Source: an uncultured Clostridia bacterium (lineage in GTDB: Bacteria; Bacillota; Clostridia; Christensenellales; Aristaeellaceae). Taken from it: 64,000 bases of DNA. The notes under the pieces are model-generated. The model was not told the DNA's origin. It made no database searches and saw only the letters and a list, made by a program, of their open reading frames with translations. Within the stretch, counting starts at the first letter, position 1. The number at the start of each line of letters is the position of its first letter. This document shows, one piece after another, positions 28,705 to 52,786 of this stretch. The translations under genes and the position numbers were made by a program. The stretch spans positions 1 through 64,000 of the forward strand of contig CAMKEI010000005.1 of the NCBI GenBank assembly GCA_946411525.1, given 5' to 3'.

Positions 28705-29826
28705 TTGTCGCTGTCACCCGATTCCAGGCAGAACCGCATGGACGAGCTGTATGAATACGGCAAATCCAAGGGCACGATTACCTATAAAGAGATCATGGAC
28801 CGCGTTTCCGGCATGGAACTGGACGCCGACCAGCTGGACCATGTGCTTGAAACGCTTGAAGCCTACGGTGTATCCGTTGTCAACGACAGCGCGGACCGTC
28901 AGGTTACCCTGACGGACGAACAGGCGGCGGACCAGGCGGCTGAAGTTGCCCGGATCGAGGGGGACACTCCGATCGACCTGACCGTCCCGGAAGGCATCAG
29001 CATCGACGATCCGGTGCGTATGTATCTCAAGGAGATCGGCAAGGTTCCGCTGTTGACTGCGGAAGAGGAAATCGAAATTGCAAAGCAGCTCGAGGCCGGG
29101 GATGAGAGCGCCAAGCAGAAACTGGCCGAAGCCAACCTGCGCCTGGTAGTATCCATCGCCAAACGCTATGTGGGCCGCGGCATGCTCTTCCTTGATCTGA
29201 TTCAGGAAGGCAATCTCGGGCTGATCAAAGCCGTCGAAAAGTTCGACTACCGCAAAGGTTTCAAGTTCTCCACCTATGCCACCTGGTGGATCCGCCAGGC
29301 CATCACCCGGGCTATTGCGGATCAGGCGCGTACGATCCGTATCCCGGTACATATGGTGGAAACCATCAACAAGCTGATCCGCATTTCCCGTCAGCTGCTT
29401 CAGGAATACGGCCGGGAACCCACCCCCGAGGAGATTGCCAGGGAGATGGGCATTTCCGAATCAAAAGTCCGGGAAATCATCAAGATCGCACAGGAACCTG
29501 TCTCTCTGGAAACCCCGATCGGAGAAGAAGAGGACAGTCATCTGGGTGATTTCATTCCCGACGAAGACGCTCCCGCCCCTGCCGAGGCCGCTTCCTTTGC
29601 CCTGATGAAGGAACAGCTGATGGATGTGCTGGACACGCTGACTCCCCGTGAGGAGAAAGTCCTTCGCCTGCGCTTCGGCCTGGACGACGGACATCAGCGG
29701 ACGCTGGAAGAAGTCGGCAAGGAATTCAACGTTACCCGGGAGCGCATCCGTCAGATCGAGGCGAAAGCCCTGCGGAAACTCCGTCATCCCTCACGCAGCA
29801 AAAAACTGCGCGATTATCTGGACTGA
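28705..29826 (+). CDS. rpoD: RNA polymerase primary sigma factor (SigA/RpoD)
   Basis: [88 protein letters not shown]. Likely TTG start at 28705 (RBS AGGAGAGG 7 nt upstream); the longer frame begins at 28630. Confidence 0.96.
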
Positions 29827-49623: not shown

Positions 49624-51393
49624 TCAGATCCGCATCGTCAGCACGTTCATTCCGAGCAGATTCTGATAGCTGATCCGGCTGGCCATTTTCAGAACCAGGT
49701 GAATCCCGACGTTTCTGCCCAGGTCGTCCATCTCCATGGTCGCGGCGTATTCGGTGGGGTTGAAAGCCCTGCAGTTGTCCCGGATCCGGAGGATGATCTC
49801 ATTTCCGCTGTGGACCACGCGGATATCTACGGAATGTTTCTTCTGGTCTTTTGTAAAGCCGTGGGCAATCACGTTTCCCGCCATCTCTTCAAGGCAGAGG
49901 CCTGCCAGGTACGTCCTGCGGCTGTCGATGCCCCGCTTTCCGCAGAAGTCCATGACCTGCCGGGATACGCTGACGACTTCTTCCATGTTTCTGACGGTAA
50001 TGTCGATACGCTTCTCCTCTGTGGCCCCGAAGTCCTCCGGAATCGCCATCAGGTCCTCCAGCGTCCGCGGGCAGCGCTTCAGCGAAAGCCAGGCGCCGGT
50101 CACAATCACAGCCGCGCACAGCACTCCGTTCAGCACGTTGGAAACATACAGGCCGTTCATCTTCATCAGCGGAATCAGCAGAAAACTGAACAGCACCACG
50201 CCGACCATGCCGTCGATCACCGGCAGGATGATTGACATGGCTTTCTTTTCAATTGTCTGCGTATAGCCGGCAAAATGCAGGCTGAGCATGGCCGGAGGCA
50301 TGCACAGTGGCAGGATCCGGAATCCCATGACTGTCATCATATACACCGGATCGGTCTGATCCCGGTAAAACAGCTGCGTCAGCGGCTCCGCCAGGAGGAT
50401 CAGGAGCGCTACAATCACGCACATCACCATCATGCCCTTCGTCATCGCGATTTTCAGCGTGTCAATCAGGGATCTGCGGTCTTCCTCCCCGATGCTGATA
50501 CTGAAGAGCATCCGCGAAACGGCGACCATTCCGAAGGGAACCGCCCAGATCACAGCCAGCAGCGAGTTTGACGCGGCGAAAGCGGAAAGGCCGACGCTGC
50601 CGACATATTTCAGCACCAGCCCGTTCACGATCAGGCAGCGGAACATTTCCACGAAGCGGGAAAGCGCGCCGGGATATCCAAGGCGGACAATCTGCGGAGC
50701 GTCTTTCCACCGGCATTTCCGAAACGAAAACTTCCACTCGGATCTTCCCGTCAGATACCATACCGACAGAACCGCCAGAAAAGTCCACGAAGCGATGGAT
50801 GTGCTGAGTCCGAGTCCGAAAGTACCCATGGAAAAGGTCACCACAAACAGATGATCCAGAACGGCGTTCACAGCAAAACAGGCGATACTGGCAATCATCG
50901 TGCGCCTTGTCTGGTTTTCCAGCGAAAGAAACGCAAACAGCTGCTGGCCGATCACCAGCGCTGGGATTCCGATCGCCTGTCCGAGGATATACTGATTCAG
51001 CATCTTCAGATCAGGCTCCTGGGAAACCAGGATACAGGTCGCGTTTGTCAGAACGCCGGTGACCAGAATGACGGACGTCAGCAGCGACAGCCCGGCGGAA
51101 ATCAGCAGGTTGACGGTAAACAGACCGTGGATCTGCTCACGGTTCCTGGCCAGGTACCGGCCGTAGAGGATCTGGGAGCCGCTGACAAACATGATGCTCG
51201 CCGCATACAGAAAGTGATTGAGCGGACCGAACAGTCCGATGGCGCTCATCGCGGTCTTTCCAATTACATTGCTGGCATACAGGCTGTCCACAATCCCGTT
51301 GACGGCGTTGATCACAATCAGCAGCACCTGGAAAGGAAGCAGCCTGAAAAACAGTCCGGTCAGCAGTTTATAGTCGGATGATCCCTGTTTCAT
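49624..51393 (-). CDS. MATE family efflux transporter with C-terminal RsbW-like HATPase domain
   Basis: 589 aa; N-terminal ~450 aa multi-TM MATE-like; C-terminal domain with N-box LCLEEMAGNVIAHGF, RDNCRAFNP and DDLGRNVGIHLVLKMASRISYQNLLGMNVLTMRI. Confidence 0.85.
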   Translation of the reverse strand: MKQGSSDYKLLTGLFFRLLPFQVLLIVINAVNGIVDSLYASNVIGKTAMSAIGLFGPLNHFLYAASIMFVSGSQILYGRYLARNREQIHGLFTVNLLISAGLSLLTSVILVTGVLTNATCILVSQEPDLKMLNQYILGQAIGIPALVIGQQLFAFLSLENQTRRTMIASIACFAVNAVLDHLFVVTFSMGTFGLGLSTSIASWTFLAVLSVWYLTGRSEWKFSFRKCRWKDAPQIVRLGYPGALSRFVEMFRCLIVNGLVLKYVGSVGLSAFAASNSLLAVIWAVPFGMVAVSRMLFSISIGEEDRRSLIDTLKIAMTKGMMVMCVIVALLILLAEPLTQLFYRDQTDPVYMMTVMGFRILPLCMPPAMLSLHFAGYTQTIEKKAMSIILPVIDGMVGVVLFSFLLIPLMKMNGLYVSNVLNGVLCAAVIVTGAWLSLKRCPRTLEDLMAIPEDFGATEEKRIDITVRNMEEVVSVSRQVMDFCGKRGIDSRRTYLAGLCLEEMAGNVIAHGFTKDQKKHSVDIRVVHSGNEIILRIRDNCRAFNPTEYAATMEMDDLGRNVGIHLVLKMASRISYQNLLGMNVLTMRI

Positions 51394-51409: not shown

Positions 51410-52786
51410 TCAGTTGTTTCCCAGGATTATTCTCGCCACATGCACGCCGCTTGCACTCGCGTGAGACAGGCTGTGTGTCACGCCGCTGCCGTCTCCGATA
51501 ATAAACAGGCCGGGATATGCGGTTTCGAGGTTTTCATCCAGTTCCGCCTCCATATTGTAGAACTTGACCTCCACACCGTAGAGAAGCGTATCGTCGTTCG
51601 CCGTCCCTGGCGCGATCTTGTCCAGCGCATAGATCATCTCGATGATCCCGTCGAGGATCCGCTTGGGGATTACCAGGCTCAGGTCCCCCGGAGTCGCGGC
51701 CAGCGTCGGTGTGACAAACGAGTCCGCAATCCGTGAGGGAGTGCTCCTGCGACCCCGGACCAGATCGCCGAAGCGCTGCACGATCACGCCTCCCCCGAGC
51801 ATGTTGCTCAGCCGGGCGATGGATTCGCCGTATCCGTTCGAGTCCTTGAAAGGCTCCGAGAAATGCTTGCTCACCAGCAGGGCGAAATTCGTGTTCTCCG
51901 TGTGCTTTGAGGGATCCTCATAGCTGTGGCCGTTCACCGTTACGATGCCGTTCGTGTTTTCACTGACCACCGCCCCGTACGGATTCATGCAGAAGGTCCG
52001 GACAAGATCCTCAAATTTCTCTGTCCTGTAGACGATCTTGCTCTCATAAAGCTCGTCCGTAAGATGGCTGAATACCTGCGCGGGCAGTTCCACACGCACG
52101 CCGATGTCGACGCGGTTGCTTTTTGTGGGAATACCCATTTCCCGGCAGATCCCTTCCATCCACTTGCTGCCGCTTCTTCCGACGGAAATCACGCATTTCG
52201 GCGCGGTAAAGCTTCTGCCGTCCTCCAAGGACACTCGGTATGTCTCTCCCTCGCGGGAAACAGATGTTACGGCGGTCTCGAAGTAGAAATCGACTTTTTC
52301 CTTCAGCTCTTTGTAAAGATTCTCCAGCACGACATAGTTGATGTCGGTTCCCAGATGGCGCACCTGTGCGTCCAGCAGATGCAGTCCGTTCTGCAGGCAG
52401 ATCTTCCGGATAGACGTATCGGCGGTGGAATACAGTTTCGTCCCTTCGCCGCCGTATTTGAGGTTGATCGCGTCCACGTACCGCATCAGCTCGAGCGCGC
52501 GGGCTTTGCCGACGTGTTCATGCAGACTGCCGCCGAAGTCGTTGGTAATGTTGTATTTCCCGTCGGAAAAAGCGCCTGCACCTCCGAAACCGCTCATGAT
52601 AGAGCAGGTTTTGCAGCGGACGCAGGATTTAATCTTTTTCCCGTCGATGGGGCATTTTCTTTTATCCAGGGTCCGGCCCAGTTCAAACACGGCAGTTCTC
52701 AGCGGTTTTCCCGCCTTCTCCGTCAGTTCATAGGCGGTAAAGATCCCTCCGGGACCCGCACCGATAATCAGCACGTCATATTCCAT
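51410..52786 (-). CDS. NAD(P)/FAD-dependent oxidoreductase (COG2509-like)
   Basis: 458 aa; MEYDVLIIGAGPGGIFTAYELTEKAGK, FSDGKYNITNDFGG, GLFIIGDGSGVTHSLSHASASGVHVARII. Confidence 0.9.
   Translation of the reverse strand: MEYDVLIIGAGPGGIFTAYELTEKAGKPLRTAVFELGRTLDKRKCPIDGKKIKSCVRCKTCSIMSGFGGAGAFSDGKYNITNDFGGSLHEHVGKARALELMRYVDAINLKYGGEGTKLYSTADTSIRKICLQNGLHLLDAQVRHLGTDINYVVLENLYKELKEKVDFYFETAVTSVSREGETYRVSLEDGRSFTAPKCVISVGRSGSKWMEGICREMGIPTKSNRVDIGVRVELPAQVFSHLTDELYESKIVYRTEKFEDLVRTFCMNPYGAVVSENTNGIVTVNGHSYEDPSKHTENTNFALLVSKHFSEPFKDSNGYGESIARLSNMLGGGVIVQRFGDLVRGRRSTPSRIADSFVTPTLAATPGDLSLVIPKRILDGIIEMIYALDKIAPGTANDDTLLYGVEVKFYNMEAELDENLETAYPGLFIIGDGSGVTHSLSHASASGVHVARIILGNN

Follow-up and report, generated by a model that had tools for sequence, protein, structure and literature searches.

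A 589-residue protein encoded on the minus strand of the window, the 64,000-nucleotide stretch of DNA analysed here, belongs to the MATE family on the evidence of both Pfam assignment and fold, and its C-terminal tail falls in the HATPase_c_2 family. We regard this arrangement as a real and conserved variant, undescribed to judge by our searches, in which a MATE transporter incorporates the HATPase component of a STAS/SpoIIE partner switch; a literature search of open-licence papers returned none on a MATE–HATPase_c_2 fusion. The gene and its two parts are:

49624..51393, minus strand: MATE–HATPase_c_2 fusion gene, 589 aa, ATG start, stop included; one ORF also in relatives.
50074..51393, minus strand: MATE transporter part, residues 1–440, modelled with about 12 long helices (PF01554, 1.1e-16).
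49627..50028, minus strand: RsbW/SpoIIAB-like HATPase_c_2 domain, cytosolic, residues 456–589 (PF13581, 4.3e-11; domain model).

The open reading frame contains no internal stop between its ATG and its end, and both halves score above their Pfam gathering cut-offs, as the original prediction of a MATE transporter and an RsbW/HATPase_c_2-like domain in a single ORF would have it. MatE reaches 61.4 bits against a cut-off of 24.9, its best stretch being residues 31–180, and HATPase_c_2 reaches 43.4 bits against 27.4 over residues 471–588. The stricter NCBIfam MATE subfamily model, TIGR00797, matches residues 27–415 (6.6e-29), but its 101 bits lie below the cut-off of 147.4. A structural model of the full-length protein (pLDDT 73.5, moderate confidence) resembles PfMATE and DinF-type MATE structures (E 1.9e-12); with 6hfb, at that same E-value, the TM (target) is 0.81, which places the protein within the MATE fold. 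Modelled by itself (pLDDT 78.5), the C-terminal domain matches chains of UsfX, RsbW and SpoIIAB with Z scores of 14–16 (rmsd 1.9–3.2 over 102–130 residues), while histidine-kinase chains reach at most Z 8.3 among the matches listed. The nearest solved protein to the domain family by sequence profile is the kinase RsbW (6m36, E 0.005). The Z scores and the PF13581 match bear out the HATPase fold that had been proposed for this domain.

The host genome carries five full-length paralogous fusion ORFs, on contigs 5, 6, 15, 52 and 85. A search for further MATE–HATPase fusions, suggested as a check on the original prediction, returned at least 69 near-full-length loci in 61 related genomes, nearly all of the same genus, and, when a profile of the domain was run over about 398 Bacillota genomes, seven further intact fusions elsewhere in the phylum (genomes G075, G089, G194, G202, G306, G332 and G377). 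These distant fusions fall in families f28, f51, f63 and f64, and the same phylum-wide search found one broken or split relative (G457). At one locus (L004:5983–7753) the MATE–HATPase gene is split into two overlapping ORFs, by a frameshift or an assembly error.

The ATP-site motifs of the domain, and two acidic residues of the transporter part, are located as follows:

49873..49890, minus strand: N-box EEMAGN, an E-x3-N motif, residues 502–507; E503 in 37/37 and N507 in 36/37 aligned fusions.
49756..49782, minus strand: G1-like box RDNCRAFNP, residues 538–546, with Cys541 replacing Gly; D539 in 37/37, C541 in 36/37.
49693..49713, minus strand: G2-like box NVGIHLV, residues 561–567; Gly563 in 37/37 aligned fusions.
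51286..51288, minus strand: Asp36, aligned with Asp41 of Pyrococcus MATE; D in 34/37 fusions.
50854..50856, minus strand: Asp180, aligned with Asp184 of Pyrococcus MATE; kept in 89% of the 37 aligned fusions.

All three boxes had been read from the DNA earlier and were recovered here, and E503, N507, D539 and G563 provide the N-box E-x3-N, the G1 Asp and the G2 Gly of a Bergerat ATP site; the D-x-G form of the G1 box, which is common but not strictly defining, is replaced in the window protein by one with Cys541. When the comparison is widened to 50 MATE-fused domains, every one has the N-box Glu and the G2 Gly (50/50 each), the N-box Asn is present in 42 and lost in eight, and the G1 Asp is present in 44 and lost in six. 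The Cys at the usual G1 Gly position, which had also caught the eye earlier, is both real and family-wide. It occupies this position in 41 of the 50 MATE-fused domains, compared with Gly in all 21 homologues that stand alone or are fused to SpoIIE, and Cys541 is therefore a mark of the MATE-fused group and no random change. Because of this replacement, and of the losses of Asn or Asp in some lineages, kinase activity cannot be assumed. Cys484, like Cys541, is kept in 36 of 37 fusions, and to go by the alignment a redox or disulfide role for the two is possible.

Asp41 and Asp184 of Pyrococcus MATE are ion-coupling residues. Their aligned counterparts are the sign seen here of efflux driven by Na+ or H+, and the conservation of these counterparts suggests a working transporter. 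Between orthologues dN/dS is 0.12–0.26, indicating purifying selection on the transporter half and the HATPase half alike. On the domain tree the MATE-fused label requires two changes, where shuffles need 18.6; a supported clade of 16 fusions includes the window gene.

In relatives, the fusions lie near genes for the other members of a partner switch. Among the matches listed, at least 24 of 69 fusions have a STAS (PF01740) or SpoIIE (PF07228) gene within 2 kb, compared with none of the 57 unfused MATE genes drawn as controls from the same genomes (Fisher p 7e-8, for loci that are not phylogenetically independent); 45 of the 69, mostly from one genus, have neither gene within 2 kb among these matches. 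Extending the distance to 5 kb gives, among the matches listed, at least 28 fusions compared with 2 unfused MATE genes, and in 27 of the 28 the genes share a strand. Each of the seven distant fusions is followed by a SpoIIE gene on its own strand, and three are preceded by STAS. This grouping on one strand with STAS and SpoIIE/PP2C genes supports the link to a partner switch that the original prediction had raised; the co-occurrence with STAS and PP2C genes holds for the family and fails at the window copy.

The clusters take several forms. Within the clade of the window gene, a 46% identical homologue lies at the end of a closely spaced, single-strand run SpoIIE – STAS/APH/HATPase – PHP – DUF218 – MATE–HATPase (L003), a 47% identical one in STAS – HATPase – HAD – MATE–HATPase – SpoIIE (L098), and a third (L112) follows a Nif11-like peptide gene and an ORF that is lipoprotein-like by eye, with SpoIIE beginning 1 bp further on. 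Elsewhere we find MATE–HATPase – STAS – H202 – HATPase (L099 and L102), STAS – H202 – SpoIIE – MATE–HATPase, the last two genes overlapping by 4 bp (L103), STAS – acyltransferase-like – MATE–HATPase – SpoIIE/HATPase (L097), STAS – MATE–HATPase – SpoIIE (L121 and L122), and STAS – ORF – MATE–HATPase – SpoIIE (L123). STAS, HATPase_c_2 and SpoIIE assignments in representative neighbours were confirmed by Pfam, and the other neighbour labels come from small home-made profiles. The STAS proteins of these clusters keep the S/T-S-A-G-L phospho-acceptor motif, mostly as YISSAGLR, and several of the SpoIIE proteins bear N-terminal sensor-like regions of their own.

Some members of these clusters have unusual architectures. 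In L003:2310–3863 the STAS domain is fused to an APH-type phosphotransferase and a HATPase_c_2 domain, and in many relatives STAS matches lie in ORFs of 400–450 aa that may likewise be STAS/APH-type fusions. The SpoIIE phosphatase adjoining the fusion gene in L098 (5943–8174) carries a HAMP domain and ends in a GNAT acetyltransferase domain. H202 (L099:5913–6518, with equivalents in L034, L100–L104, L107 and L108) is a family of about 200 aa encoded directly after STAS; its proteins have no match in Pfam or NCBIfam, and their E-E-M-M motif suggests a degenerate HATPase. Nif11-like leader genes (RiPP precursors; L046:782–1222 and L112:8667–8954) stand directly upstream of the fusion gene or two genes before it. 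On contig 15 of the host genome, a MATE–HATPase paralogue is accompanied within L027:9163–17512 by an ECF sigma gene, a SpoIIE/HATPase gene and two ABC genes for peptide export of the NHLM type; a STAS–H202 pair (L034:6864–7835) lies about 9 kb upstream.

The fusion, the predicted fold, the conserved ATP-site residues, the purifying selection and the nearby STAS and SpoIIE genes of relatives are the basis on which we consider it reasonably probable that the protein is a MATE secondary transporter with a C-terminal RsbW/SpoIIAB-type kinase-like domain, and that its family supplies the HATPase component of a STAS/SpoIIE partner switch. For the fusion protein itself we infer that it is an active kinase, that it binds STAS and that its transport is gated. 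Control of sigma factors is the best-known task of partner switches; in the RsbW/RsbV/RsbU system, a PP2C phosphatase yields the unphosphorylated STAS protein, which docks on the HATPase domain and is rephosphorylated by it with ATP. By analogy, (i) a sensor-linked SpoIIE (PP2C) phosphatase would remove the phosphate from the conserved Ser of the STAS protein; (ii) the unphosphorylated STAS protein would dock on the HATPase domain of the transporter, and transport would change; and (iii) with ATP, the fused HATPase domain, or a second HATPase of the operon, would rephosphorylate the STAS protein, which would then be released. The stand-alone or SpoIIE-fused HATPase encoded in many operons could be the real kinase. 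A rule that a broken fused ATP site always goes with another HATPase in the operon was considered and dropped as too weak (five of seven broken against five of 13 intact, by hand tally). The window transporter is probably gated post-translationally. That the membrane transporter is the direct output of the switch, unphosphorylated STAS docking on the RsbW-like domain and opening or closing the MATE protein while transcription is unchanged, is plausible, if somewhat short of probable; as part of this proposal, the switch may in some operons serve the export of a ribosomally made peptide, an idea that arises because Nif11-like precursors or NHLM exporters adjoin some members.

Several known systems share parts of this design. 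With RsbW, SpoIIAB and UsfX, which work with RsbV, SpoIIAA or RsfB and with SpoIIE or RsbU, the domain has in common its predicted fold, the N-box Glu and Asn, the G1 Asp and the G2 Gly, and STAS and PP2C genes likewise lie beside members of the fusion family in relatives. Unlike those proteins, it is tied to a 12-helix transporter, has Cys in place of the G1 Gly, and no dedicated sigma-B/F target for it was found. Pyrococcus MATE and DinF-BH, of the MOP superfamily, share the transporter fold and the two N-lobe Asp residues; the matched solved MATE proteins align over the transporter part, to which the fusion adds a signalling domain of about 135 residues. In Pseudomonas aeruginosa, SiaA, SiaB, SiaC and SiaD form a switch in which a SpoIIE-type phosphatase and a HATPase-like kinase govern a partner acting on a diguanylate cyclase, and the domain-only model matches the SiaB–SiaC structure 6kko at Z 12.6. 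As in our proposal, the target there is no sigma factor; it is an enzyme, the diguanylate cyclase, and a soluble protein of its own acts as the kinase, whereas here the kinase-like domain is fused to the transporter. CbrA-type sensor kinases combine a transporter-like domain with a histidine kinase, and mycobacterial MurJ/MviN carries a pseudokinase domain. Both thus join a transporter-type membrane domain to an ATP-binding regulatory domain, as the fusion does; however, CbrA belongs to another transporter family, MurJ has another kinase fold, and neither is known to have a STAS/PP2C partner switch.

The main rival to STAS-gated transport is a flow in the reverse direction, from transport state to STAS. 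The MATE part would then be a sensor (a transceptor) whose substrate or transport state controls the HATPase kinase, with an output through STAS, H202, a stand-alone HATPase or an ECF sigma factor. The MATE domain does form the first half of a signalling polypeptide, several operons contain extra HATPases and the H202 protein, an ECF-type sigma gene adjoins the host's own contig-15 cluster, and ORFs resembling ECF sigma genes (by eye only) lie near the L121 and L122 clusters. However, the conserved transport Asp residues speak for a transporter at work, the sensor-like regions of several SpoIIE proteins make a second sensor unneeded, and no sigma-B/F/G target scores over its cut-off. We consider this rival unlikely, though it deserves to be kept in view.

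STAS-gated transport would require the window protein to find its partner at a distance. Neither a STAS nor a SpoIIE gene lies within 6 kb of the window copy; those relatives in our set that are most similar to it (at least 55% identity) likewise lack a STAS or SpoIIE neighbour, so that any partner would act in trans. The upstream neighbour is:

51410..52786, minus strand: FAD-dependent oxidoreductase (context), ending 16 bp upstream of the fusion gene on the same strand.

A functional link to this gene was rejected, as the adjacency is not conserved at orthologous loci. STAS and SpoIIE genes are both present elsewhere in the host genome, with STAS domains encoded on contigs 15, 16 and 30. Contig 16 (L035) carries SpoIIE – STAS/APH – PHP, homologous to the L003 cluster and without an adjoining MATE–HATPase gene; its STAS domain is fused to an APH-type phosphotransferase (L035:3972–5147), and no HATPase domain was detected in that protein. 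Since the L003 homologue of this operon ends in a MATE–HATPase gene, the contig-16 STAS is a candidate partner in trans of the window protein.

The isolation of the window copy and its closest orthologues from STAS and SpoIIE genes also agrees with a reading in which this copy is an ordinary MATE exporter and its HATPase domain, a remnant or scaffold, neither binds ATP nor has a STAS partner, and fused domains of some distant lineages have indeed lost ATP-site residues. Against this, the 37 aligned fusions show almost no variation at the ATP-site residues and selection on the domain is much like that on the transporter part, and we judge such decay improbable.

It is very improbable that the domain is an anti-sigma factor, holding a sigma factor at the membrane until displaced by STAS. 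The fold and Pfam family are those of RsbW and SpoIIAB, and the contig-15 paralogue does adjoin an ECF sigma gene; however, the domain scores far below curated anti-sigma cut-offs (12.3 bits against 135 for the SpoIIAB model TIGR01925), and the window copy has no adjoining sigma gene. With the sigma-B/F/G models, no gene over the family cut-off was found in the host genome, which is 85% complete, making a sigma-factor target less likely; the best of the sub-cut-off matches, at 29104–29787 of contig 5, looks like the housekeeping sigma factor. The usual anti-sigma role, cited in the original prediction, is thus not supported.

Finally, the joining of two neighbouring genes by a sequencing or assembly error, conceivable in principle for any draft assembly such as this one of 113 contigs, is ruled out for practical purposes by the recurrence of the same one-ORF architecture in the at least 69 loci of 61 related genomes and in the seven distant ones.

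Generic annotation likely calls these fused genes plain transporters or ATP-binding proteins, for which the partner-switch reading offers a concrete hypothesis. The operons of relatives, with their matching phosphatase and switch protein, suggest from gene content that the transporter is wired directly to a phosphorylation switch. The set of STAS, SpoIIE and MATE–HATPase genes in gut and rumen Clostridia, where a single genome may encode five such transporters, offers testable material, and, if the proposal is true, a conserved family would have its HATPase member covalently joined to a drug/peptide-type transporter and the partner-switch mechanism would extend from sigma factors to the direct control of membrane transport.
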